DNA from: Acidimicrobiia bacterium
Lineage (GTDB): Bacteria; Actinomycetota; Acidimicrobiia; IMCC26256; JAENVU01
Length of the DNA stretch: 37,340 bases
Assembly: GCA_009694415.1 (NCBI GenBank)
Contig: SHUZ01000007.1
Span: 1-37,340, forward strand
Direction: 5' to 3'
Numbering within the stretch: position 1 is the stretch's first letter; every line of letters starts with the position of its first letter. Positions 2,859 through 16,144 of the stretch are shown here, one piece after another. Both the position numbers and the translations under genes were made by a program. The notes below the pieces were generated by a model. It did no database searches and had not been told where the DNA came from. It was given only the letters and a program-made list of their open reading frames with translations.

Positions 2859-2890
2859 TAACCTGTACCCAACGTGAGTACCGTCACGTT
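2859..2890 (+). promoter_or_regulatory. Putative purA promoter and leader palindrome
   Basis: TAACCT at 2859-2864 fits the TANNNT -10 pattern common in this window and would place transcription start near 2871. A perfect 7-bp inverted repeat begins exactly there: AACGTGA at 2871-2877, spacer GTACCG, TCACGTT at 2884-2890. It could be an operator or the first hairpin of the purA leader, next to the terminator hairpin at 2893. No convincing -35 was found. The promoter is inference; the palindrome is seen directly. Confidence 0.45.
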
Positions 2891-2892
2891 TC

Positions 2893-2926
2893 AGACCGTG
2901 CAATCTCGCACGGTCTTTCTATTTTT
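2893..2926 (+). terminator. Rho-independent terminator or attenuator between clpB and purA
   Basis: A perfect 9-bp stem (AGACCGTGC at 2893-2901, GCACGGTCT at 2908-2916) with loop AATCTC is followed by TTCTATTTTT. The tail ends at 2926, 1 nt before the purA ribosome binding site (AGGAG, 2928-2932). It can terminate the hspR-clpB message. If purA is transcribed from a promoter near 2859, the hairpin lies in the purA leader and could act as an attenuator. Confidence 0.8.
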
Positions 2927-2938
2927 CAGGAGACAACT

Positions 2939-4231
2939 GTGCCTGGCGCAGTGATTGTGGGCACCCAGTGGGGTGACGAGGGAAAGGGTCGATTTACCGA
3001 CTACCTCGCGAAAGATGCATCGCTTTGCGTGCGCTATCAGGGGGGCCACAACGCGGGCCACACGCTCGTCGTGGACGGCCAAGTGTTCAAACTTCAACTG
3101 GTTCCGAGTGGCGTTCTTTATCCGTGGGTGCTGCCGGTTATTGGAAACGGCGTCGTCGTAGACCCGCACGTTCTCCTAGCTGAACTCGACATGCTCGAGT
3201 CCAAGGGCATCGACAGTCGCCGCATTCGTCTGTCAGGTAATGCGCATCTGATCATGCCGTACCACCAAGAACTCGACCGCCTCAACGAGCGCTATCTCGG
3301 AAACGCCAAGCTCGGCACCACAAAGCGTGGTATCGGTCCTGCATATGCAGACAAGGCGATGCGAGTAGGGCTTCGAGTGCAAGACCTACTCGACCCCAAG
3401 ATCTTTCGCGAGAAGTTGGATCTAGTGCTGCGGGAGAAAAACGGAGTGTTGACGAAGGTCTACAACCGCTTGCCTGTCGATGCGGACGAATTGGCAGCCA
3501 ACTACCTCGCACTAACCGACCGCCTTGAACCATTGATCGATGACACGGTGCATCTCGTTCACGAAGCACTAGATGAGGATCAGTGGGTTCTTTTTGAAGG
3601 CGCCCAAGCAACGTTCCTCGATCTGGATCACGGTACGTATCCATTCGTCACGTCGAGCAACCCTGTTGCAGGAACCGTCTGTGCCGGCGCGGGCGTAGGT
3701 CCCCGCGACATCGAGCGCATTGTCGGAGTCGTCAAGGCATACACAACACGCGTCGGTAGCGGACCATTTCCTGCCGAACTATTCGAAGGTGATCCCGTCA
3801 GCGACGCACTCGTAGACCGCGGTGGAGAGTTTGGCACCAACACGGGTCGGCGTCGTCGTACCGGCTGGTTGGACCTCGTGATGGTGAAGCACTCATTGCG
3901 CATCAACACATGCACAGAAATCGCGCTTACCAAACTCGATGTGCTTTCGTCATTCGACGAACTCAAGGTCTGCGTTGCTTACGAAGGTGAAGACGGCACC
4001 CGTTACGACCACGTTCCGTATCACCAGTCGGTGTTGCACAAGGTGCGCCCTGTGTACGAAACCCTTCCCGGTTGGCATGTAGATATAGAACGCGCGGCGG
4101 TGTTGGAGGACTTGCCGTCTGCGGCCATGGAATATGTGCGTTTCATCGAGCAGTTCACTGGTGTTCCGGTGACTTTCGTGGGCGTTGGTCCGGGCCGTGA
4201 GCAGACGGTCGTGTTGCCACGCGCGGCATAA
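2939..4231 (+). CDS. purA: Adenylosuccinate synthetase
   Basis: PurA is a cytosolic GTP-dependent enzyme that joins IMP and aspartate to give adenylosuccinate, the first committed step to AMP. The 430-residue length is standard. The P-loop-like [10 protein letters not shown] is at residues 8-17 and the GHNAGHT catalytic histidine motif at 36-42, with [11 protein letters not shown] further on. Translation starts at GTG 2939 with an AGGAG 6 nt upstream. It heads the purine cluster and works with purB, which removes fumarate from its product. purD starts 9 nt after its stop, through a tiny mini-ORF. Confidence 0.97.
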
Positions 4232-4232
4232 C

Positions 4233-4244
4233 GTGAACACGTGA
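4233..4244 (+). other. Three-codon stop-start mini-ORF before purD
   Basis: GTG AAC ACG TGA begins 1 nt after the purA TAA, and its TGA (4242-4244) overlaps the purD GTG (4241-4243). The stretch is a perfect 8-bp tandem repeat (ACGTGAAC at 4231-4238 and 4239-4246). No Shine-Dalgarno sequence is visible before purD, so reinitiation by terminating ribosomes is plausible. Function is inferred. Confidence 0.4.
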
Positions 4245-5494
4245 ACGTTCTCGTCGTCGGTTCCGGTGCCCGTGAGCACGCACTCGCGTGGGCCCTATCC
4301 CGCTCGCCACTCGTCGACGAAGTCGTTTCCGCGCCAGGTAATCCCGGTATCGCGTCCGGGGTAGGGCCGTGCATGGATTTGCCATCTGCGCTTGCTCGCC
4401 TCGACACCTTCGAACTTGTGGTTATAGGTCCGGAAGGGCCACTCGTAGACGGCCTCTCAGATTCCTTACGCGCATCGGGCGCGAATGTGTTTGGGCCATC
4501 GGCGGCTGCATCCCAACTTGAAGGATCCAAAGCCTGGATGAAGGAAATACTCGCGGCCGCAGGTGTTCCGACGGCGCGCTACGGACGCTTCGACGACAAC
4601 CAAGAAGATACCGCGCTCGCATTCCTCGAAACCTTGCCTGGTCTCTACGTAATCAAGACAGATGGGCTAGCCGCAGGTAAGGGGGTGATTGTCACCGAAT
4701 CAATTACCGAAGCGCGTGCAGCGGTTCGCTCGTACCTTTCCGGAGAAGCCTTTGGCGACGCAGGCCGCACACTCGTGTTGGAGGAAGGTCTAACCGGTCC
4801 CGAACTTTCGCTGCTGGTGTTATGTGATGGAACGCTCGACGGCATTCCACTCGCGCCTGCACAAGATTTCAAGCGCATTGACGACAAAGACACGGGTCCC
4901 AACACTGGAGGGATGGGTGCGTACTCGCCTGTGCCGGTTGCCGGAAACGAAATTGTTGAACTTGCTATGGAGCAAGCGGTACGACCGACCCTCGAAGAAT
5001 TAGCAGGTCGTGGGATCGACTACCGCGGTGTGCTCTACGCGGGTCTAATGCTCACACCCGACGGGCCGAAGATCATTGAGTACAACGTGCGCTTCGGCGA
5101 TCCGGAATGCGAGGTCGTGGTTCCGCGCCTGTCGAGTGATCTCGCTGTGCATCTCCTCGAAGCAGCAACGGACCGTTTGACGAGCCCAGTTGTGTTCACC
5201 GACAATGCCTGCGTAACCATCGCGCTCGCAACTGAAGGGTATCCACACACCCCGCGCACCGGAGATGTGATCGAAGGCCTCGAAGCCGCAAGCGCGTTAG
5301 ACGACGTAATGATTTTTCATGCGGGAACACGCGGTGAGGGCAACGACATAGTGACCGCTGGTGGGCGAGTGTTGGCGGTCACAGCGCTAGGAGATTCGGT
5401 GTCGAACGCTCGCGAGCGCGCGTATGAGGCTGCCAACCTCATCTCATGGCCAGGAATGCACTACCGAACCGATATTGCAGCCGGAGTTACTTGA
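4241..5494 (+). CDS. purD: Phosphoribosylamine-glycine ligase (GAR synthetase)
   Basis: PurD couples phosphoribosylamine and glycine using ATP to make GAR, the second step of purine synthesis. The 417 residues begin with the typical [13 protein letters not shown] segment, followed by the ATP-grasp region with [12 protein letters not shown] and the metal-binding [10 protein letters not shown] motif. The GTG start at 4241 lacks a clear Shine-Dalgarno sequence and is overlapped by the stop of a three-codon mini-ORF. The gene ends with TGA at 5492-5494, where the next mini-ORF begins at once, leading to purB. Full-length and intact. Confidence 0.96.
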
Positions 5495-5511
5495 TGATGG
5501 AGCTTTCATGA
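5494..5511 (+). other. Five-codon stop-start mini-ORF between purD and purB
   Basis: ATG ATG GAG CTT TCA TGA (peptide MMELS) starts on the last base of the purD stop (TGATG) and its own TGA overlaps the purB ATG (ATGA). The two starts are 14 nt apart. The mini-ORF also contains GGAG at 5499-5502, a plausible Shine-Dalgarno site for purB, so the open frame could be incidental to that site. Confidence 0.45.
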
Positions 5512-6803
5512 TTCCTCGCTATTCACTTCCCGAGATGGACGCGCTCTTCAATGACGAAGCGCGGTTTGGCGCATGGCTCGAGGTCGAGATCTTGGCTACC
5601 GAAGCATGGGCAGATCTCGGTGTTGTTCCACAAGACGCAGCCAAGGCCATCCGCGCCCGCGCAGGCTTTGATGTTGCTGCAATCGAAGAACGCGAGCAGA
5701 TCACAGAGCATGATGTTGCGGCGTTTGTCGACATAGTGCAGGAGTCAGTCGGGCAACCGGAAGGTGCCTGGCTCCACTACGGCCTCACCTCAAGCGATGT
5801 GGTCGACACTGCACTCGCGTTGCAACTGACGCGTGCTGCCGACTTACTCATTGAAGCGGCCGTCGCTCTCGAGGGCGCCATAGCAACACGAGCACGCGAG
5901 TTCCGGAACACTCCTATGGTCGGCAGAACGCACGGCATACATGCGGAACCAACCACGTTCGGCGTAAAACTCGCGTTGTGGGCGCTTCAGGTCCGCCGCG
6001 ATGTTGAACGCCTACGTAGGGCGCGCACCGGAATTGCAGTAGGAAAACTTTCGGGCGCGGTCGGGACGTATTCAAACGTAGATCCAGCTGTCGAAACACA
6101 TGTTTGTAACGCGTTGGGACTGGTACCCGTGCCTGCTACCCAAGTACTTGCGCGCGACAGGCACGCGGAGTTGCTCTACGCATGCGCGTCTGTTGGTGCC
6201 ACGATCGAACAATGTGCCTTAGAGATACGTCACCTGCAACGCACCGAAGTACGCGAGGCCGAGGAGCCATTTCGTGCCGGAAAGCAGAAGGGTTCTTCTG
6301 CGATGCCGCACAAGCGCAACCCGGTCAAGTGCGAGCAGTTGTGCGGCCTCGCGCGCGTGTTGCGTGCCGATCTCATGGCAGGTCTGGAAAACGTTGCGCT
6401 TTGGCACGAGCGTGATATTTCACACTCTTCGGTAGAACGCATTGTGCTTCCCGACGCCTGCCTGCTTACCCACTACATGCTCATCAAGATGCGATCGGTT
6501 GTGGAGGGAATGGTCGTCTATCCGGAACGCATGTTGGAGAACCTCGCTGCCAGCTATGGGCTCGTATTCAGTCAGCCGGTGCTGCTTGCGCTAGTCGAAT
6601 CGGGCAAGTCGCGTGACGATGCGTACCGAATCGTTCAACGCAACGCCATGAAGACATGGGATGAGCGACGTCCGTTCATCGATGTTCTCCGGGAGGACTC
6701 CGAGATCACGGGAGCGCTTTCCGATGAACAATTAGTTGCCTGCTTTGATCTCACTCGCGCGATTTCGAACGTCGGTAGAACGTTCTCGGTGCTCGACGCG
6801 TGA
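5508..6803 (+). CDS. purB: Adenylosuccinate lyase
   Basis: PurB eliminates fumarate from SAICAR to give AICAR and from adenylosuccinate to give AMP. The 431-residue protein carries the fumarase/aspartase superfamily signature SSAMPHKRNP in its central third, the GRTHGIHAEP segment upstream and the TSSDVVDTA motif near the N-terminus. I chose ATG 5508 (MIPRYSLPEMDALF) because the family begins here and GGAG lies 5 nt upstream; a 28-residue extension reaching 5424 overlaps purD and is rejected. It sits between purD and purC, matching its role after PurC. The stop overlaps the first of two mini-ORFs before purC. Confidence 0.96.
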   Translation: MIPRYSLPEMDALFNDEARFGAWLEVEILATEAWADLGVVPQDAAKAIRARAGFDVAAIEEREQITEHDVAAFVDIVQESVGQPEGAWLHYGLTSSDVVDTALALQLTRAADLLIEAAVALEGAIATRAREFRNTPMVGRTHGIHAEPTTFGVKLALWALQVRRDVERLRRARTGIAVGKLSGAVGTYSNVDPAVETHVCNALGLVPVPATQVLARDRHAELLYACASVGATIEQCALEIRHLQRTEVREAEEPFRAGKQKGSSAMPHKRNPVKCEQLCGLARVLRADLMAGLENVALWHERDISHSSVERIVLPDACLLTHYMLIKMRSVVEGMVVYPERMLENLAASYGLVFSQPVLLALVESGKSRDDAYRIVQRNAMKTWDERRPFIDVLREDSEITGALSDEQLVACFDLTRAISNVGRTFSVLDA

Positions 6804-6831
6804 GCAGCACACGGTGAGGGCCGCGCGATGA
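6800..6831 (+). other. Two tandem five-codon mini-ORFs between purB and purC
   Basis: GTG at 6800 overlaps the purB TGA (GTGA). It runs five codons (peptide MSSTR) to TGA 6815-6817, which overlaps GTG 6814. That second unit runs five codons (MRAAR) to TGA 6829-6831, which overlaps the purC ATG at 6828. The starts are spaced exactly 14 and 14 nt. The second unit contains GAGGG at 6816-6820, a possible Shine-Dalgarno site 7 nt before purC; the first unit has none. Confidence 0.5.
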
Positions 6832-7706
6832 TCGAATTGCCTCAGCTCTACAGCGGCAAAGTACGCGATCTATACGAAGCCGGCGACGACCGTCTACTCA
6901 TGGTCGCGTCCGACCGGGTCTCAGTGTTCGACGTCGTACTCGAAAATCCAGTGCCAGATAAGGGTCGTGTGCTGACCGCGATCTCTGCGTTCTGGTTTGA
7001 GCAGATGGCCGACCTCCTTGCGAACCATGTCATCTCGGTCAACCCAGAAGATTTCCCCGCGCAAGCGCGGCCCGACGCCGACGGCCGCGCAATGCTTGTA
7101 CGACGGACCGAACCAGTACGCATGGAATGCATCGCGCGCGGGTATTTGTTCGGTGGCGCATGGACCGAATATTGCGAACACGGCACCGTGCAGGGGAGTC
7201 CGATGCCAGCGGGAATGCGGGAAGCGGAACGTCTACCCGCGCCGATGTTCACGCCCACAACAAAGGCCGACGCCGGTCACGACTTGCCGATGACCGATGC
7301 TCAGGCCGTTTATCTCGTCGGTCGTGAGACATTCGAACGTCTTAAGGAAGCGGTGCTCGGCATCTACGAACGCGGTGCCCGCTTTGCGGAGACACGCGGG
7401 ATAATCCTTGCGGACACCAAGTTCGAGTTCGGCTTTGCTCCCGACGGCGAACTCCTGCTGATCGATGAAGTGCTCACGCCTGACTCCTCTCGTTACTGGC
7501 CGGTGGAGGAATACGCGCCCGGTGGATCGCCGCCAAGCTTCGACAAGCAGTTCGTACGCGATCACTACCTGACGTTGGACTGGGACAGGACATCACCTGC
7601 GCCTGCCGTGCCGCCAGAGGTCATTGCCGGTACGCGAGCGCGCTACATCGAGGCATACGAACGGCTTACGGGTCTCCTCTTTGATGACTGGTACGGTCGC
7701 CCATGA
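6828..7706 (+). CDS. purC: SAICAR synthetase
   Basis: PurC condenses CAIR with aspartate using ATP to give SAICAR. The 292 residues start MIELPQLYSGKVRDLYE, with the diagnostic YSGKVRDLYE ATP-site segment; LADTKFEFGF and LIDEVLTPDSSRYWP follow in the second half. The length matches the longer actinobacterial form rather than the roughly 237-residue E. coli enzyme. The ATG is overlapped by the stop of a mini-ORF, and the TGA overlaps the purS ATG by 4 nt, so purC, purS and purQ should be translated in close coupling. Confidence 0.96.
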   Translation: MIELPQLYSGKVRDLYEAGDDRLLMVASDRVSVFDVVLENPVPDKGRVLTAISAFWFEQMADLLANHVISVNPEDFPAQARPDADGRAMLVRRTEPVRMECIARGYLFGGAWTEYCEHGTVQGSPMPAGMREAERLPAPMFTPTTKADAGHDLPMTDAQAVYLVGRETFERLKEAVLGIYERGARFAETRGIILADTKFEFGFAPDGELLLIDEVLTPDSSRYWPVEEYAPGGSPPSFDKQFVRDHYLTLDWDRTSPAPAVPPEVIAGTRARYIEAYERLTGLLFDDWYGRP

Positions 7707-7963
7707 TGTTTTCTGTGACTGTGCAGGTGACTCACCTGCCTGGAATCTTGGATCCGGTGGGCGCAACGGTCGAACGCGCTTTGCCTGCCCTCGGGTACAC
7801 CAACGTTTCGCAGGTACATGTCGGCAAAACCATCCGACTGATGATCGATGCCGAGAATGTTGAAGCCGCACGTGCTCAGTGCGAAGAGATGTGTCAACGA
7901 CTGCTTGCCAACCCGGTCATTGAGGCGTTCGACATTTCGATTGATGATGTAGTTCCGGCATGA
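7703..7963 (+). CDS. purS: FGAM synthase subunit PurS
   Basis: PurS is the 86-residue small subunit that bridges PurQ and PurL in the three-part FGAM synthase complex of Gram-positive bacteria. It starts [20 protein letters not shown] and contains [17 protein letters not shown], the typical PurS pattern. The start could be ATG 7703 or the adjacent ATG 7706. It overlaps purC by ATGA and purQ by ATGA, which fits the need for matched amounts of PurS, PurQ and PurL. Confidence 0.95.
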
Positions 7964-8646
7964 CATCGCGCGTCGGTGTTGTGCAGTTTCCTGGCACCAA
8001 CTGCGAACTCGACGTAATACAGGTAGTCGAACAACTTGGCGGAACCGCAGAGATCTTGTTTCATTTGGAGAGCGCACTAGGTGGTGTTGATGCGGTGGTC
8101 GTTCCTGGTGGATTCGCACACGGCGACTACCTACGAACAGGAGCCATCGCGCGCTTCTCTCCAGTGATGGATGCGGTTGCGCGCCATGCTGCCGAAGGTG
8201 GCCCTGTAGTTGGAATATGCAATGGATTTCAGGTTCTTTGTGAGGCGGGCCTGCTACCTGGTGCACTCCAGAAGAACGCGGGCCTCAAATTTCTCTGTGA
8301 AGACGCTGTCTTGCGTGTAGAAACCACCGACTCGGCACTTACGAACATGGCAACCGTCGGGCAGCATCTAAACATTCCAATCAATCACTTCGAAGGTAAC
8401 TATGTATGTGACCCGAACGTGCTCGCCCGACTGCGCGCAGAAGACCAAGTAGTTCTTCGTTACGTTGATAACCCGAACGGCAGCCTCGACAACATCGCTG
8501 GTATCTGCAACGCGGGTCGCAATGTCGTTGGGCTCATGCCGCACCCCGAGCGCGCGTCGGACGCATTGTTAGGTTCTGAAGATGGTTTGGTATTGATGCA
8601 GTCGATACTTGCTGCATGCGGCCAAGTAATGAGCATGCCACGATGA
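7960..8646 (+). CDS. purQ: FGAM synthase glutaminase subunit PurQ
   Basis: PurQ is a class I glutamine amidotransferase that hydrolyses glutamine and passes ammonia to PurL. The 228-residue protein has the nucleophile Cys87 in [11 protein letters not shown] and the His/Glu pair in GLMPHPER near the C-terminus. It begins [16 protein letters not shown], the normal start. The ATG overlaps the purS stop. Its TGA is overlapped by an ATG that opens a five-codon mini-ORF leading to pyrE. Confidence 0.96.
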
Positions 8647-8660
8647 GGGTGTCGCGATGA
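8643..8660 (+). other. Five-codon stop-start mini-ORF between purQ and pyrE
   Basis: ATG AGG GTG TCG CGA TGA (MRVSR) overlaps the purQ TGA at its start (ATGA) and the pyrE ATG at its end (ATGA), again with a 14-nt step. CGATGAGG occurs at 8641-8648 and again at 8655-8662, as if the start region had been duplicated. GAGGG at 8645-8649 could also serve as the pyrE Shine-Dalgarno site, which is the simpler explanation here. Confidence 0.45.
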
Positions 8661-9208
8661 GGCCAGCACAGGCAGCGCTCGCTGCGGTGTTACGCGAGTA
8701 TGCGATCACGGAAGGCGAGTTCACTCTCGCCTCGGGTCGCAAATCGAGTTGGTATTTGGACGGCCGCCAGGTGACGTTTCGCGGCGATTGCCTCACGATT
8801 GTTGGCGATGCCATCACCGAAGCGCTCGCCGAAGTTGGTATCGGTGATGACTATGACGCAGTGGGTGGGTTGGCAGTGGGAGCAATTCCTGTCGCGTTGG
8901 CCGTAGCGACGATCAGCGGCAAGCGGAGTTTCGCTGTGCGCAAGGAAGCAAAGGGACATGGCGTTGGCGGTCGTATTGCTGGCCCTCTGAATCCGACAGA
9001 CCGCGTATTGGTAGTCGAAGATGCGGCGACTACCGGAACGTCGTTGATCGAGGCAGTCGATGCGATCAGCGAATTTGGTTGTGAAATCGTGGCCGCCACG
9101 CTGCTTCTGGACCGCGGCGGCGAAGTAGGAGCGGCGCTGGCCGAACGGGGCATCGCGTACGCGCCGGTACTGATCGCTCCAGACCTGGGTTTCGCGCTCG
9201 GAAGCTAA
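8657..9208 (+). CDS. pyrE: Orotate phosphoribosyltransferase
   Basis: PyrE transfers phosphoribose from PRPP to orotate, making OMP for pyrimidine synthesis. The 183 residues contain the short-form OPRTase core: FTLASGRKSSWYLDGR near the N-terminus and the PRPP-binding VLVVEDAATTGTSL loop in the second half. A pyrimidine gene inside a purine cluster is unusual in layout but logical, because both pathways draw on PRPP. The ATG at 8657 is overlapped by the mini-ORF stop. A stop at 9206-9208 is followed by the promoter-like spacer before purL. Confidence 0.92.
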   Translation: MRPAQAALAAVLREYAITEGEFTLASGRKSSWYLDGRQVTFRGDCLTIVGDAITEALAEVGIGDDYDAVGGLAVGAIPVALAVATISGKRSFAVRKEAKGHGVGGRIAGPLNPTDRVLVVEDAATTGTSLIEAVDAISEFGCEIVAATLLLDRGGEVGAALAERGIAYAPVLIAPDLGFALGS

Positions 9209-9242
9209 ACGCCCTCGGGTTTGGGGATGGGTTTTGGGTCAG

Positions 9243-9248
9243 TAGTCT
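9243..9248 (+). promoter_or_regulatory. Putative leaderless promoter of purL
   Basis: TAGTCT lies 6 nt before the purL GTG at 9255, placing the expected transcription start on or next to the start codon. A TTGGGG at 9221-9226 is a weak -35 candidate with a 16-nt spacer. There is no Shine-Dalgarno sequence. The same spacing occurs at several other genes in the window. Confidence 0.45.
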
Positions 9249-9254
9249 CGGCAG

Positions 9255-11540
9255 GTGACCGCTGAACCGCTCCATCGTGCCCTCGGCATGACCGATGACG
9301 AGTTGGAAGCAGTCGTCGATGAACTGGGTCGCGAACCCACACATCTTGAACTCGCTATGTATTCGGTTATGTGGTCTGAGCATTGTTCCTACAAGTCGTC
9401 GCGGTCCCATCTCAAGCGCTTGCCCACGGAAGCGCCGTGGGTATTAGTGGGTCCGGGCGAAGGTGCGGGTGTGATCGATGTCGGCGACGGCATCGCGGTA
9501 GCGGTGCGCATCGAAAGTCACAACCATCCGTCCGCCGTCGAGCCATACCAAGGTGCGGCTACGGGAGTTGGCGGCATTATCCGCGACATCTTCTCAATGG
9601 GCGCGCGCCCTATTGCTCTAATGGATCCGTTGCGTTTCGGATCGTTGGACGATGCGCGCACGCGGTACTTGTTCGAAGGTGTTGTCAGCGGCATTAGCGG
9701 GTACGGGAATGCAGTTGGCGTTCCGACAATCGGCGGCGAAGCGGTATTCGACGAGTGCTACCACGACAATCCACTCGTCAACGTCTTCTGCCTCGGCGTG
9801 CTTCCCCACGAGCGGCTTGTTCTTGCACGCGCAGAAGGCGTCGGAAATCTTGCCGTGCTATTGGGTGCTTCGACAGGCCGTGATGGCATCGGCGGAGCGA
9901 GCGTTCTGGCATCGGCCGGTTTCGCCGACGCCGACGAGTCGAAGCGGCCGAGCGTGCAGGTGGGAGACCCGTTCGAAGAAAAGAAGTTGATTGAAGCGTG
10001 TCTCGAGCTGCTCGATGCTGACCTTGCGATAGGCGTGCAAGACCTCGGCGCAGCGGGATTGTCGTGTGCCGCAAGTGAGACGGCTGCCAAGACCGGCGCA
10101 GGTATGGATGTAGATGTAGCGCGGGTTGCCAAACGCGAGCCGGGCATGACGCCGGTAGAGGTGCTCACTTCGGAGAGTCAGGAACGCATGTTGGCAATTG
10201 TCACTCCGGACAACCTTGAAGCAGTACTTGCACTATGCGAGCGGTGGGAAGTGCGAGCGACAGTGGTTGGTCGCGTTACAGATAACGCGCGTTTTCGTGT
10301 GTACGACGGCCTGTTCGACGCACTCGGAGTTCCGGGCGTGAACCCTGCGCCTCCACATGGTGATGCAGCACAAGATGCGAGTTCGGATCGGGAACCGCTT
10401 GCGGATGTTCCGATCGAAAGTCTGGGTGATGGTCCTCTGTACCACCGACCGCTCGCACCACCAAATGATCTGCACGACAAGCAAAGCGATGACCCGGCTC
10501 GGGAACTAGCGGCGCGTTTCTCCGACGGCGCCGATTGCACGGTCGAGTTACTCGCGCTTCTTTCATCGCCAAACGTTGCCGACAAGACTTGGATCTCGCG
10601 CCAGTACGACCATCAATTATTTCTCAATACGGTGGTTGGCCCTGGCAGGGACGCAAGTGTGTTGCGACTTCAAGAAACTGCGGGTCGTGCACTCGCCTTG
10701 GCGGTAGATGGCAAGGCTCGCTTCTGCGCCCTCGACCCGCGCACCGGAGCGCGTCTTGCGGTGCTTGAAGCTGCCCGCAACGTGGCATGCAGCGGTGCGC
10801 GTCCGCTAGCGCTCGTGAACTGCCTGAATTTTGGAAACCCAGAACACACGGAAGTGATGTGGCAGTTCTCTGAAGTGATCGACGGTATGGCAGAGGCCTG
10901 CACCGCGCTCGGTTTGCCGGTAATCGGTGGCAACGTGAGTTTCTACAACGAGAGCCGTGGCGCCGACATTGATCCAACACCAGTGGTCGGCGTGATCGGT
11001 CTCATCGACAATCTCAAAACGCGACCGGTCGGCACCGCTCTCACGTCGGGTGATCGGATCGTGGTCCTTGGCGAGACGCGGTCGGAATTGGGGGGATCAG
11101 AGTGGGCGACGATGCACGGCCTGCGAAATGGTGTGCCGCCGATCGCCGATCTAGACACCGCGCGACGACTACACGAACTCGTAGCGGCGCTTGTTGTCGA
11201 GGGAGTTCCGAGCGGCATCCACGATTGCGCGGACGGAGGTCTTGCGGTAACGCTTTGCGAGATGGCTATCGCAGGGGAGATCGGGTTCCAAGTCAACATT
11301 GGTGGAGCGCTTAGTTGTTTCTCCGAGTCGGCATCGCGCGTAGTTCTTTCACTGGCTCCCGATCGCGAGCAAGTGGTTCTCGACCGCGCTGCAGACGCCG
11401 GCGTACCCGCATCGGTGATCGGTAAAGCGGACGGCACGCGTCTCACTGCCGAGGAAGCATTCGATGTATCGCTTACCGATGCCACAACGGCCTGGCGAGA
11501 TGCCATCCCATCGCTTATGGCGGCGGTTGTAGCGCACTGA
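9255..11540 (+). CDS. purL: FGAM synthase large subunit PurL
   Basis: PurL is the 761-residue catalytic subunit that converts FGAR to FGAM with ATP and the ammonia delivered by PurQ. It is the short, three-component form expected with separate purS and purQ. Visible motifs are MYSVMWSEHCSYKSS near residue 35, HNHPSAVEPYQGAATGVGG near 90-110, and IGGNVSFYNES in the second half, reflecting the internally duplicated AIR-synthetase-like fold. The GTG start at 9255 is preceded by a leaderless-type -10 element instead of a ribosome binding site. It is separated from purQ by pyrE. Confidence 0.96.
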   Translation: MTAEPLHRALGMTDDELEAVVDELGREPTHLELAMYSVMWSEHCSYKSSRSHLKRLPTEAPWVLVGPGEGAGVIDVGDGIAVAVRIESHNHPSAVEPYQGAATGVGGIIRDIFSMGARPIALMDPLRFGSLDDARTRYLFEGVVSGISGYGNAVGVPTIGGEAVFDECYHDNPLVNVFCLGVLPHERLVLARAEGVGNLAVLLGASTGRDGIGGASVLASAGFADADESKRPSVQVGDPFEEKKLIEACLELLDADLAIGVQDLGAAGLSCAASETAAKTGAGMDVDVARVAKREPGMTPVEVLTSESQERMLAIVTPDNLEAVLALCERWEVRATVVGRVTDNARFRVYDGLFDALGVPGVNPAPPHGDAAQDASSDREPLADVPIESLGDGPLYHRPLAPPNDLHDKQSDDPARELAARFSDGADCTVELLALLSSPNVADKTWISRQYDHQLFLNTVVGPGRDASVLRLQETAGRALALAVDGKARFCALDPRTGARLAVLEAARNVACSGARPLALVNCLNFGNPEHTEVMWQFSEVIDGMAEACTALGLPVIGGNVSFYNESRGADIDPTPVVGVIGLIDNLKTRPVGTALTSGDRIVVLGETRSELGGSEWATMHGLRNGVPPIADLDTARRLHELVAALVVEGVPSGIHDCADGGLAVTLCEMAIAGEIGFQVNIGGALSCFSESASRVVLSLAPDREQVVLDRAADAGVPASVIGKADGTRLTAEEAFDVSLTDATTAWRDAIPSLMAAVVAH

Positions 11541-11572
11541 CAGCGGGTGCAGCCTCGGCTGGGCTCCTCTGC

Positions 11573-11578
11573 GATAAT
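11573..11578 (+). promoter_or_regulatory. Putative leaderless promoter of purF
   Basis: GATAAT, preceded by TGC in the extended -10 position, ends 7 nt before the ATG at 11586. Transcription would start at or beside the start codon. This supports choosing ATG 11586 over GTG 11547 or ATG 11577. No strong -35 is visible. Confidence 0.5.
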
Positions 11579-11585
11579 GGGGGCA

Positions 11586-13100
11586 ATGCCCGTCGACTCG
11601 GATGCACGCATCGACGCCGCTGCCCCACAGATTGGGCACGCGTGCGGTGTGTTTGGCGTGTACGCACCGGGGCAGCCCGTTTCCAATCTCGTTTACCTAG
11701 GGCTCTTCGCATTGCAACACCGCGGTCAGGAATCGGCAGGGATCTCAGTCAGCGATGGCGAGACGATCACCGTCGTCAAGGACATGGGTCTCGTATCTCA
11801 AGTGTTCGACGAGCGCCGCCTTGCTCCTCTGCACGGTCATCTAGCGATTGGCCACAACCGCTACTCGACCACCGGTGCTTCGTCCTGGCACAACGCGCAA
11901 CCCATCTACCGCTCGGTTGGTGACGCCGGTTTCGCTTTAGGTCATAACGGCAACCTCACAAATACCGCCGATCTCGCATTGCGACTCGGGATGCTTCCAG
12001 GTATGACAGCCGCCGAAACCGAGTTCGATTCGACTACCGACTCTGCTCTTGTGGCCGAGTTGGTAGCCCGTGAGTGGTCCGATGAACCGCGTAGCGATGG
12101 CCGCGAGTTGGAGGTTGCGCTTGAAAAAGTATTGCCTCGCCTCGAGGGAGGGTTTTCCTTCGTATTGATGGATGACTCACACCTCATTGGCGTACGCGAC
12201 CCGCACGGCATCTGGCCCTTGGTACTTGGTCGCCTCGACGGTGGTGGGTGGGTGCTTGCGAGCGAGTCGGCAGCACTCGACATCATTGGAGCGCATTACG
12301 TGCGCGATGTAGAACCGGGAGAGATGGTCGTAATCGATGCGGCGGGTCTGCGCCGCGAGTACAACTACGCAGCCGCTGATCCGAAACTGTGCCTCTTTGA
12401 ATTTGTGTACTTCGCCCGCCCAGATACGCGCCTTTACGGACAGAGCGTGCACGCAGCTCGCCAACGTATGGGCGAAGCGCTCGCCAAGCAAGCACCGGTA
12501 GCAGCCGACATGGTGATGCCTGTTCCGGAGTCCGGGATACCCGCAGCGCAAGGGTTCGCGCGCGAGTCAGGTGTTCCGTATGGAGATGGCTTGGTCAAGA
12601 ACAGGTATGTGGGCCGCACGTTCATCCAGCCGAGTCAACGTGAGCGCGGCGTTGGCGTGCGCCTCAAGTTGAATCCGCTTCCAGAGAACATCGAAGGCAA
12701 GCGCTTAGTTGTTGTCGACGATTCGATCGTGCGCGGCACTACTACCCGCGAGGTGATCAAGATGTTGCGCGAGGCTGGAGCTGCAGAGGTGCACTTCCGG
12801 GTCTCGTCGCCCCCTTATCGGTGGCCATGTTTTTACGGGATGGATACGGGGCGCCGTGGAGAACTGCTCGCGGCTGACCTATCGGTAGGCGAGATACGCG
12901 ACTACCTCGGCGTTGACTCGCTTGCGTACCTAGAACTCGACCGCCTTACCGCTGCAACTCACGCCTCTCCCGAGGCGTTCTGCACGGCGTGTTTGTCCAA
13001 TAACTACCCGATTCCGGTAACGCTTACCGACGGCGACGCAAAGATGGTGCTCGAGACACAGGTGCTCGACTTCACCGAGCCCGCCGGCGTTAAAAAGTGA
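11586..13100 (+). CDS. purF: Amidophosphoribosyltransferase
   Basis: PurF makes phosphoribosylamine from PRPP and glutamine, the committed purine step. From ATG 11586 the protein has 504 residues. A 19-residue propeptide precedes the catalytic Cys20 in HACGVFGVYAP, as in the processed Bacillus-type enzyme. The glutaminase domain contains LQHRGQESAGI, and the phosphoribosyltransferase domain has VVVDDSIVRGTT. Cysteines in PKLCLFEF, YRWPCFYG and FCTACLSNN match the four [4Fe-4S] ligands of the oxygen-sensitive B. subtilis type. The stop overlaps the first of two mini-ORFs leading to purM. Confidence 0.95.
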   Translation: MPVDSDARIDAAAPQIGHACGVFGVYAPGQPVSNLVYLGLFALQHRGQESAGISVSDGETITVVKDMGLVSQVFDERRLAPLHGHLAIGHNRYSTTGASSWHNAQPIYRSVGDAGFALGHNGNLTNTADLALRLGMLPGMTAAETEFDSTTDSALVAELVAREWSDEPRSDGRELEVALEKVLPRLEGGFSFVLMDDSHLIGVRDPHGIWPLVLGRLDGGGWVLASESAALDIIGAHYVRDVEPGEMVVIDAAGLRREYNYAAADPKLCLFEFVYFARPDTRLYGQSVHAARQRMGEALAKQAPVAADMVMPVPESGIPAAQGFARESGVPYGDGLVKNRYVGRTFIQPSQRERGVGVRLKLNPLPENIEGKRLVVVDDSIVRGTTTREVIKMLREAGAAEVHFRVSSPPYRWPCFYGMDTGRRGELLAADLSVGEIRDYLGVDSLAYLELDRLTAATHASPEAFCTACLSNNYPIPVTLTDGDAKMVLETQVLDFTEPAGVKK

Positions 13101-13128
13101 CCGTGCAAACGTGACGTCTCAAACGTGA
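13097..13128 (+). other. Two tandem five-codon mini-ORFs between purF and purM
   Basis: GTG 13097 overlaps the purF stop (GTGA) and runs GTG ACC GTG CAA ACG TGA. Its TGA overlaps GTG 13111, which runs GTG ACG TCT CAA ACG TGA. That TGA overlaps the purM GTG at 13125. The steps are 14 and 14 nt. The two units share 10 of 14 bases. Neither contains a GGAG-like site, so a Shine-Dalgarno explanation does not account for them. Confidence 0.5.
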
Positions 13129-14189
13129 CCGCGGACGGGGCCGACTCTTCCAAGCCGGATCGACTCACTTACGCCCAAGCTGGCGTTGACATAGCTGCTG
13201 GTGAAATGGCCGTCGAGGCGATCAAGGCGCATGTTCGGAGCACGTTCCGCCCCGAAGTTGTAGGCGATGTCGGCGGTTTTGGTGGCCTGTTCGCAATTGG
13301 AAAGTTGGGCTACAGCGACCCCGTTCTTGTTTCTTCAACCGATGGTGTCGGCACTAAGTCATTGATTGCACGCCTCACGCGTCGATTCGACACAATCGGA
13401 ATCGACCTGGTCGGTACCGCAGACGATATAGCCGCACAGGGTGCGGAACCGTTGTTCTTTCTCGACTACATCTCTGTCGGCAAGTTGGTGCCGGAGATGA
13501 TCGATGACCTTGTGCGCGGAATAGCGGAAGGGTGTCGCCAGGCAGGGTGCGCGTTGATCGGTGGAGAGATGTCGGAACATCCCGACTTGATGTCGCCAGG
13601 CGACTTCGATCTAGTTGGGTTTGCAGTCGGTGTCGTCGAGCGCGACCAGATACTCCCGCGCGACGTGAAGGCTGGTGATCGCGTAGTTGGCATTGCGAGC
13701 CCTGGTTTGCGGTGCAACGGCTATTCGTTGGCGCGCAGAGCGCTGCTAGATCGTGCGGGACGATCCTTGGACGCGCCGGCATGGAAGGGAGCCGCGACAA
13801 CTCTCGGTGAAGAGTTATTGCGCCCGAGTGTTATTTATGCACCAGCACTCGCAGCGATTCGTCGGCGGGTAAAGGTGCACGCGTTCGCTCATGTCACGGG
13901 TGGCGGCATTCCCGGCAACCTCGTGCGCGTGCTTCCGCACGGTTGCGATGGCGTCGTGCACCGAGGGCGTTGGGAGGAGCCGCGCATCTTTGGCGAAGTG
14001 CAGGAAGCCGGTGACGTGGCCGATGACGAGATGGAACAGGTATTCAACCTCGGGCTCGGGATGCTTGTCGTTGTTGCAGCAAGCGATGTCGAGCGCACAA
14101 TTGATACGGCTCGTTCAGCGGGCCACGATGCTTGGCTAGTCGGAGAAATCACCGACGGCCACGGAAACGCCAGGGTGACTCGCAAGTAG
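13125..14189 (+). CDS. purM: AIR synthetase (FGAM cyclo-ligase)
   Basis: PurM closes FGAM to AIR with ATP. The 354-residue sequence has the family hallmarks LTYAQAGVDIAAG, GGFGGLFAIG, VSSTDGVGTKS and the glycine-rich HVTGGGIPGNLVRVLP. The GTG at 13125 is the only in-frame start that matches the usual N-terminus and is reached through the mini-ORF chain from purF. It is the last gene of the purine cluster; the next gene converges on it, with stops 5 nt apart and no terminator visible between them. Confidence 0.95.
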   Translation: MTADGADSSKPDRLTYAQAGVDIAAGEMAVEAIKAHVRSTFRPEVVGDVGGFGGLFAIGKLGYSDPVLVSSTDGVGTKSLIARLTRRFDTIGIDLVGTADDIAAQGAEPLFFLDYISVGKLVPEMIDDLVRGIAEGCRQAGCALIGGEMSEHPDLMSPGDFDLVGFAVGVVERDQILPRDVKAGDRVVGIASPGLRCNGYSLARRALLDRAGRSLDAPAWKGAATTLGEELLRPSVIYAPALAAIRRRVKVHAFAHVTGGGIPGNLVRVLPHGCDGVVHRGRWEEPRIFGEVQEAGDVADDEMEQVFNLGLGMLVVVAASDVERTIDTARSAGHDAWLVGEITDGHGNARVTRK

Positions 14190-15652: not shown

Positions 15653-15728
15653 TGGTGGCCGGGACCGGCGTCGATCCGGTGACCCCACGCTTTTCAGGCG
15701 TGTGCTCTGCCGACTGAGCTACCCGGCC
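15653..15728 (-). tRNA. tRNA-Phe (GAA)
   Basis: 76 nt including an encoded CCA. The acceptor stem is GGCCGGG/CCCGGCC, the D-arm starts TAGCTCAG, the anticodon loop CTGAAAA gives GAA, and the T-loop is GGATCGACGCC. It is the third gene of a Glu-Asp-Phe minus-strand operon and the only one of the four tRNAs here with CCA in the DNA. Confidence 0.95.
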
Positions 15729-15755
15729 GTGCGGGAAGATCGTAGAGACTCCCGG

Positions 15756-15830
15756 CGGTCCTGACGGGATTTGAACCCGCGGCCTCCGCCTTGACAGGGC
15801 GGCGTGCACTCCAAACTGCACCACAGGACC
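15756..15830 (-). tRNA. tRNA-Asp (GTC)
   Basis: 75 nt without encoded CCA. The acceptor stem is GGTCCTG/CAGGACC with discriminator G, the anticodon stem is CCGCC/GGCGG with loop CTGTCAA (GTC), and the T-arm is GCGGGTTCAAATCCCGT. The gene's downstream bases read CCG, so CCA must be added by the nucleotidyltransferase. Confidence 0.95.
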
Positions 15831-15865
15831 GTGGTGGTAACCGTCAATTGTGTTACGGCTTCCGG

Positions 15866-15938
15866 TGCCCCCAGGGGAGTTCGAATCCCCGTTACCGCCG
15901 TGAAAGGGCGGCGTCCTAGGCCACTAGACGATGGGGGC
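15866..15938 (-). tRNA. tRNA-Glu (TTC)
   Basis: 73 nt without encoded CCA. The acceptor stem is GCCCCCA/TGGGGGC with discriminator A, the anticodon loop CTTTCAC gives TTC, and the T-arm is CGGGGATTCGAACTCCCC. It is the first gene of the minus-strand Glu-Asp-Phe operon. Confidence 0.95.
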
Positions 15939-16071
15939 TCGCGCTCCTTGAGCGGCACGGCAGCGTAGCAGCGCGCAGCCGTTCTTTCCTAAGGGTGACG
16001 GCGGTGCCCGTCGCGATGGTGCCCTTCGTCGGACTGCGTATATGTGGAAGCGCAGGGTACGCTCAGGGTTG
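15939..16071. promoter_or_regulatory. Divergent promoter region between tRNA-Glu and tRNA-Lys
   Basis: TACGCT occurs on both strands as a possible -10: minus strand at 15962-15967, 23 nt before tRNA-Glu, and + strand at 16058-16063, 8 nt before tRNA-Lys. Neither has a clear -35. No coding frame in the spacer looks real. Confidence 0.3.
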
Positions 16072-16144
16072 GGGTCGCTAGCTCAACTGGTAGAGCACCG
16101 GGCTTTTAACCCGTTGGTTCAGGGTTCAAGTCCCTGGCGACCCA
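16072..16144 (+). tRNA. tRNA-Lys (TTT)
   Basis: 73 nt without encoded CCA. The acceptor stem is GGGTCGC/GCGACCC with discriminator A, the anticodon loop CTTTTAA gives TTT, and the T-arm is CAGGGTTCAAGTCCCTG. The first anticodon-stem pair is C-T, a mild irregularity. It is divergent from the Glu-Asp-Phe operon; these four specificities also cluster in mycobacteria. Confidence 0.93.

Follow-up and report, generated by a model that had tools for sequence, protein, structure and literature searches.

The purA leader of the window (the whole stretch of 37,340 nt that was analysed) contains a short open reading frame that starts with GTG at position 2874 and ends with a TGA at 2952-2954, inside purA. 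Comparison with related leaders makes it our best reading that this is a nearly leaderless upstream ORF (uORF) coupled to purA, at the head of the cluster running from purA to purM. A -10 box of the form TAnnnT, a gap of 9 or 8 nt, a GTG and a coupled frame recur in 48 of the 53 purA leaders of the order, in 15 of 18 families. Across these families the peptide drifts freely, while the start codon, the frame and the stop position are held, and the comparison gives good evidence that delivering ribosomes can itself be what selection maintains. Translation of the uORF would thus probably deliver ribosomes to purA, and in this species it may also override a transcription stop. A first-pass annotation of this DNA had suggested a purA promoter, a possible attenuator behind it and a weak possible RNA antiterminator; the promoter and the attenuator reading stand, the antiterminator does not, and the decisive element appears to be the uORF rather than an RNA switch.

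Layout of the purA leader and its predicted 5' end

All features of the leader lie on the + strand. The co-directional clpB ORF (161-2830; TIGR03346 ClpB, 1322.6 bits) stops 28 nt short of the -10 box TAACCT (2859-2864). The predicted transcription start, A2871, lies 7 bp past the box and follows a pyrimidine, and it is also the first base of a 5'-terminal hairpin (2871-2890, AACGUGA/UCACGUU) that would bury the uORF GUG. Downstream come an intrinsic terminator stem-loop (2893-2916), its T-tract TTCTATTTTT (2917-2926), the Shine-Dalgarno sequence AGGAGA (2928-2933), and purA itself (2939-4231, start GTG 2939; adenylosuccinate synthase, NF002223, 590.1 bits). The first-pass coordinates of the -10 box, both hairpins, the T-tract and the ribosome binding site (RBS) all hold on inspection and refolding, as does the remark that the terminator ends 1 nt before the RBS: C2927 alone parts the T-tract from AGGAGA. 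That annotation had missed the uORF (2874-2954), whose 26 codons and stop span the terminator, the purA RBS and all of the 5' hairpin except its first three bases. The frame overlaps the purA start by 16 nt, its TGA being supplied by purA codons 5-6 (GTGATT) read in the +1 phase. The 68-nt stretch from the -10 box to the end of the T-tract has a folding energy of -24.3 kcal/mol, where shuffled versions average -9.7 (z -6.8; none of 200 does as well).

Behind purA follow purD, purB, purC, purS, purQ, an ORF with a phosphoribosyltransferase domain, purL, purF and purM (4241-14189, +; ORFs with profile matches), and purA to purM is predicted to form one operon, which we consider probable. The phosphoribosyltransferase ORF (8657-9208, +), between purQ and purL, matches PF00156 at E 3.8e-09. 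Rfam, applied at the gathering score to the whole window, found four tRNAs only, and no known riboswitch or leader; these tRNA genes are clustered at 15656-16144, three on the - strand and one on the + strand.

The promoter at 2859-2864 and a start near 2871, both proposed in the first pass, are borne out as predictions by the recurrence, in 48 of the 53 order leaders, of the -10 box and a CAACGTGA-like stretch at the same spacing. Of the 48 uORF leaders, 46 have a spacer of 9 nt between TAnnnT and GTG and 2 have one of 8 nt. According to the part of PMC5730371 available to us, the modal distance from the -10 to the start is 7 bp, with positions 6-9 used; A2871 sits at that mode, and a 9-nt spacer would therefore leave a 5' leader of just AAC, 3 nt. 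In columns that the search left free, A occupies the predicted start in 42 of the 48 leaders, C precedes it in 44, and A directly follows the uORF GTG in 44. The start codon itself is GTG in 48 of 48, though ATG and TTG were permitted in the scan, which points to a constraint beyond decoding.

A baseline for leaderless genes was drawn from 264 ORFs of three relatives (G002, G005, G042) plus one window ORF, the only one there to pass a G+C filter. TAnnnT stands 6 nt before 12 of 656 in-frame candidate starts and before none of 836 out-of-frame ones, and 7 nt before 6 in frame as against 2 out of frame, an enrichment that makes strictly leaderless genes likely in the order. These candidates start with ATG or GTG and their gap peaks at 6 nt; the purA uORF appears to be offset from them by about three bases.

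The putatively coupled frame across the order

The order comprises 58 genomes, 53 of them with a purA 5' end; among the other five, three gave no match, one had a fragment and one had the gene cut at its start. Two contigs (L058 and L059) belong to G057 and G011 and were counted once. One scripted scan found 47 of the 48 uORF leaders and another found L004, the GTG being chosen by promoter sequence with the frame ignored. Both scans demanded AC or CC (or similar) before the GTG, which makes conservation of those bases partly a matter of construction. An unconstrained scan of the last 135 nt of the 53 leaders (TAnnnT, a gap of 5-11, then ATG, GTG or TTG, blind to frame and neighbouring bases) recovered the same 48, leader L044 and four other sites.

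The distance from the uORF GTG to purA takes 24 different values among the 48 leaders, from 26 to 116 nt, and the uORFs are 8 to 43 codons long, with peptides that have little in common past the first residues. Past codon 7 they lack the position-2 dip in G+C that purA has (0.65/0.70/0.74 vs 0.64/0.56/0.78); this is expected if the frame alone matters, and it gives no independent sign of translation.

Despite the varied lengths, every one of the 48 frames has its stop in the interval from -7 to +13 relative to the purA start (48 of 49 if L044 is counted), so that the order-wide pattern is that of the class of coupled uORFs, whose frames end, across relatives, at the next gene or just within it. 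As a control, these leaders contain 152 other ATG, GTG or TTG codons, of which 26 have frames stopping between -10 and +13, and the two other frames read from the uORF GTG stop in that interval in 0 and 3 of the 48. A null with resampled leaders and free phase puts the mean chance of a stop in that interval at 0.29 per leader, and the values multiply to 7.6e-9 across the 15 families and to 7e-14 across the 24 spacings; the leaders being related, the family figure is the more cautious one and still approximate.

Most uORFs (40 of 48) use a stop at +13, in purA codons 5-6. Of the 48 uORF leaders 46 have such a stop within purA, as do 2 of the 5 order leaders lacking a coupled uORF and 5 of 20 loci from outside the order, so stop placement follows in part from the purA protein sequence. 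This makes the exceptions more telling, though there are just two: L021 (GTCATT) and L028 (GTGGTT) have no stop in purA codons 5-6 and instead carry a TGATG on the purA ATG. The uORF of L054 also stops at -2. Relative to purA, the uORFs occupy all three phases (43, 3 and 2 of the 48), and the five that are off phase carry stops of their own, at -3 (two), -4 (two) and -7. Three phases with one outcome fit termination near the purA start. A programmed frameshift from the uORF into purA was considered and is ruled out by the differing phases and by the off-phase leaders having their own stops before purA. By raw count, at least four of six bases match GGAGGA before purA in 45 of the 48 leaders, so purA might not need the coupling.

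The five order leaders without a coupled uORF are three of family f11, one of f13 and L044 of f7; the last keeps the promoter -10 and a GTG at 8 nt, with a frame that stops at -58. The -10/GTG unit is absent from three genomes of the same class that belong to other orders (G058-G060). It is likewise absent from 20 outside loci, among 41 of 80 loci listed; these (L060-L080 minus L077, a Coriobacteriia locus that was left out) are Acidimicrobiia-related or plain Actinomycetota by title. One locus from an Acidimicrobiales MAG (L079) has, upstream of 2501, a TAGACT, 6 nt, and a GTG opening a 12-codon frame that ends at -6, perhaps an independent leaderless uORF or else chance.

The 5' hairpin and the terminator

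The 5' hairpin of the window pairs 2871-2877 with 2884-2890 (7 bp, -7.4 kcal/mol). CGTT, the partner of its AACG, is the commonest tetramer at predicted RNA positions 10-36, where 27 of the 48 leaders have it (base shuffles predict 4.2), representing 8 of the 15 families; since the leaders are related, the excess is smaller than it appears. Counting starts 9 nt into the RNA, and the hairpin of L007, with its 4-nt loop, thus goes uncounted. The pairing probability averages 0.66 over the first six bases, as against 0.45 with the remainder shuffled, and is above 0.5 in 36 of the 48 leaders. The first 45 nt fold on average no more stably than shuffles (-12.5 vs -12.3), so what speaks for the hairpin is the recurrence of its arms and not its stability. 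On this comparison the 5' hairpin appears to recur in many lineages, amounting to about half the families, with loops that vary; it is not evident in several others, f16 for example.

The first CGTT after AACG lies at offsets of 7 to 24 and is not always the predicted partner. A distance that varies in this way means that the loop changes size while the clamp stays, which suits an RNA structure over a protein dyad. The same letters can be read as CAACGTGA N(6) TCACGTT, a sequence to which a CRP-like dyad geometry is attributed, and hence as a DNA operator for a predicted purine repressor lying over the start site. The dyad is near-perfect in the window and in several families, and its left half is strongly conserved. 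However, a second arm at offsets ranging from 7 to 24 is more readily explained by a hairpin loop than by a dimeric operator, and the half-site with its -10 is almost confined to purA: TAnnnT-N5-CAACGTGA has 39 matches in 61 genomes, 34 of which lie before purA by coordinates. We therefore consider an operator a poor bet. The reversed control pattern gives 17 matches, so the 5 non-purA matches call for no explanation. Two genomes of one genus have the -10/CAACGTGA sequence at a non-purA place (G040:C46:127269-127287 and G050:C124:10331-10349), which may be a conserved coding stretch.

The terminator hairpin within the uORF has 9 bp, a loop of 6 and a folding energy of -15.7 kcal/mol. Terminator-like sites in the first 8 kb number 6 against 7.6 expected in shuffles; as the count is not above chance, it is the quality of the 2893-2926 site that matters, none of the other five having so long a stem or so full a T-tail. 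No further one lies between the clpB stop and purA, and two weaker ones lie inside clpB. A terminator inside the uORF is found in five of the seven genomes of family f1: the window and G001, of the same genus, and G004, G005 and G006 of genus g3. In all five it begins 19 nt past the GTG and 46 nt upstream of purA. The same scan found none in the two remaining f1 genomes (G002 and G003), and in 43 of the 48 uORF leaders there is no terminator-like site between the GTG and purA, all 5 positives being in f1.

Between the window genus and g3, changes in the terminator stem keep the pairing when compared by eye (outer pair A-U/G-C, third A-U/G-U, seventh U-A/G-C), and in g3 the T-tract has just four T. 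The suggested antiterminator would pair ACCGT (2880-2884) with ACGGT (2910-2914). The complementarity exists in the window and 4 of its 5 pairs are kept in G001, which loses one, but three g3 genomes (GCAGT vs CCGGT) have the terminator and yet lose at least 2 of the 5. Forcing the alternative fold gives -9.7 kcal/mol, far weaker than the -23.8 of the unforced one. Attenuation by RNA alone through this antiterminator is accordingly most improbable, and we offer translation of the uORF, not an alternative RNA fold, as the putative antitermination device.

The attenuator reading of the first pass is a fair one, as the terminator falls within the predicted purA transcript and is the sole such site between the clpB stop and purA. 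With the predicted start 5' of the terminator and the uORF offset the same in two genera, every purA transcript must pass it. The terminator might merely be that of clpB, with the purA promoter reading through it constitutively; the uORF would then couple translation while the terminator went unregulated. That clpB stops at 2830 with no other terminator-like site before purA favours this account, as do the 43 leaders without a terminator, which indicate that the uORF does not need one. Against it, the terminator lies wholly 3' of the predicted start at a constant offset from the uORF GTG; moreover, co-directional clpB lies upstream in 19 of the 53 leaders (181 to 1581 upstream bases), 5 of which have the terminator, while 14 manage without. 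We regard this account as quite possible, if short of probable. A pyrBI-like attenuator that ribosomes override, and that also halts untranslated read-through from clpB, is what the f1 terminator probably is.

Proposed working and related systems

Taken as a whole, a uORF-coupled purA with the f1 terminator serving as a ribosome-overridden attenuator is the model we favour, and we think it rather likely to be right. Transcription would begin at about A2871, and the fourth base of the mRNA would open the GUG uORF. Entering at the 5' end or close to it, ribosomes would translate the uORF and stop at the TGA in purA codons 5-6, after which they would either re-initiate at the purA start or leave that start exposed to new ribosomes. 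Selection would keep the frame and the stop position of the uORF, the peptide being seemingly irrelevant. RNA that is not translated, whether from clpB read-through, a closed 5' hairpin or a lagging ribosome, would end at the terminator; in clpB read-through RNA the GTG would be internal and held in a hairpin, and such RNA should terminate. A ribosome translating the uORF close behind the polymerase would instead let transcription continue into the pur genes, as happens at pyrBI. As a speculation, a purine shortage that slowed the polymerase would give more read-through.

In the pyrBI attenuator of E. coli, a leader ORF runs through the terminator, closeness of ribosome and polymerase gives read-through, and UTP shortage raises it. 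The purA leader is alike in that its ORF (2874-2954) spans the terminator (2893-2916) and ends past it near the first structural gene, the arrangement that defines pyrBI-type attenuators and that is found here in f1 only. It differs in serving the purine pathway, in its near-leaderless start, in its read-through being a prediction, and in having no U-rich pause tract before the terminator: we found no nucleotide-sensing tract there, the longest run in 2871-2893 being TTT. In E. coli a translating ribosome near a terminator suppresses termination, and terminators lying within 100 bp of the start of a coding region can act efficiently, according to the portion of PMC4824070 at hand. Such efficiency means that ribosomes may arrive too late to antiterminate; both observations fit an attenuator set by ribosome loading relative to the polymerase.

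The purA uORF would work like the coupled small ORFs of mycobacteria, with strict membership among leaderless frames hinging on the actual 5' end. According to the available text of the genome-wide study by Shell et al. 2015 (PMC4633059), mycobacteria have hundreds of small ORFs, many of them on leaderless transcripts; coupling to the next gene is over-represented and sometimes persists although the peptide is not conserved. The purA uORF shares with them a leaderless or near-leaderless start and a short frame whose stop falls at the next gene or within it. It is unlike those described in that text in its predicted 3-nt 5' leader, its GTG in 48 of 48 cases and its recurrent 5' hairpin, in overlapping the next gene mostly by 16 nt vs RTGA, in preceding one gene order-wide and in enclosing a terminator in one family. 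With coupled leaderless uORFs already known, what would be new here is the deep conservation before purA, the 5' hairpin and the embedded terminator. A uORF joined to a terminator ahead of a long purine cluster, as in the window, had no counterpart at purA in the literature searched. Our search combined purA or purine synthesis with leaderless, uORF or leader peptide, and covered leaderless starts in Acidimicrobi; no such leader showed up among the results, drawn mostly from papers outside subscription. A review describes ribosome delivery by short upstream ORFs as a proposed role, in the part available (PMC12548453).

Mycobacterial polycysteine attenuators also have a leaderless short ORF that governs downstream genes (Canestrari et al. 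2020, cited in the available part of PMC9031893); unlike them, the purA uORFs have no regulatory codon run, so the charged tRNA of one amino acid is unlikely to be the signal. A leader-peptide attenuator responding to an amino acid was rejected in the same way: the peptides are unrelated, no common codon run is seen by eye, and the proposed antiterminator is unfavourable.

The choice of start site might itself be regulated. In pyrC and pyrD, start-site switching decides the fate of a 5' hairpin, which depends on the base used as +1; there the hairpin would bury a Shine-Dalgarno sequence, here the uORF start, and switching here is hypothetical. Ample ATP would favour A2871, with the GUG buried, while low ATP and high GTP would favour G2874 and a truly leaderless GUG; RNA from G2874 would lose three hairpin pairs and raise PurA, which spends GTP to make AMP. 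It would agree with this that the hairpin begins exactly at the predicted start, that the GTG is invariant, and that its usual spacing of 9 nt exceeds the 6-7 of candidate leaderless genes. Removing AAC weakens the hairpin to -4.1 kcal/mol, and in some species leaderless translation falls when the start is structured or lies further from the 5' end (PMC9031893, from the same part of the text). Yet a start at G2874 would be 10 bp past the -10, outside the range of positions 6-9 given in the consulted part of PMC5730371; the first six bases are paired at a mean probability of 0.5 or less in 12 of the 48 leaders; and any 5' truncation weakens a hairpin. A start switch is on balance unlikely. Three nested devices in some 80 bases (an ATP/GTP choice of start, a hairpin hiding the GUG, and a uORF gating both the terminator and the ribosomes for purA) are a still more doubtful combination; if real, they would place purA to purM under control without a regulatory protein, a ligand-binding aptamer or regulatory codons.

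The coupled uORF with its -10 gives no sign of being common outside purA. In 394 kb from three relatives, short -10-led frames ending at the start of a long ORF number 0 at gaps of 6-7 nt and five at gaps of 8-9, three of the five being those of purA; four control gap pairs give 1, 0, 2 and 2, so that the two non-purA frames are at control level. In both of these the stop overlaps the start of the long ORF (434 and 430 codons); one lies at G002:C1 near 125968 on the + strand, and the other in G005:C124 on the - strand, at scan position 13079 of the reverse complement.
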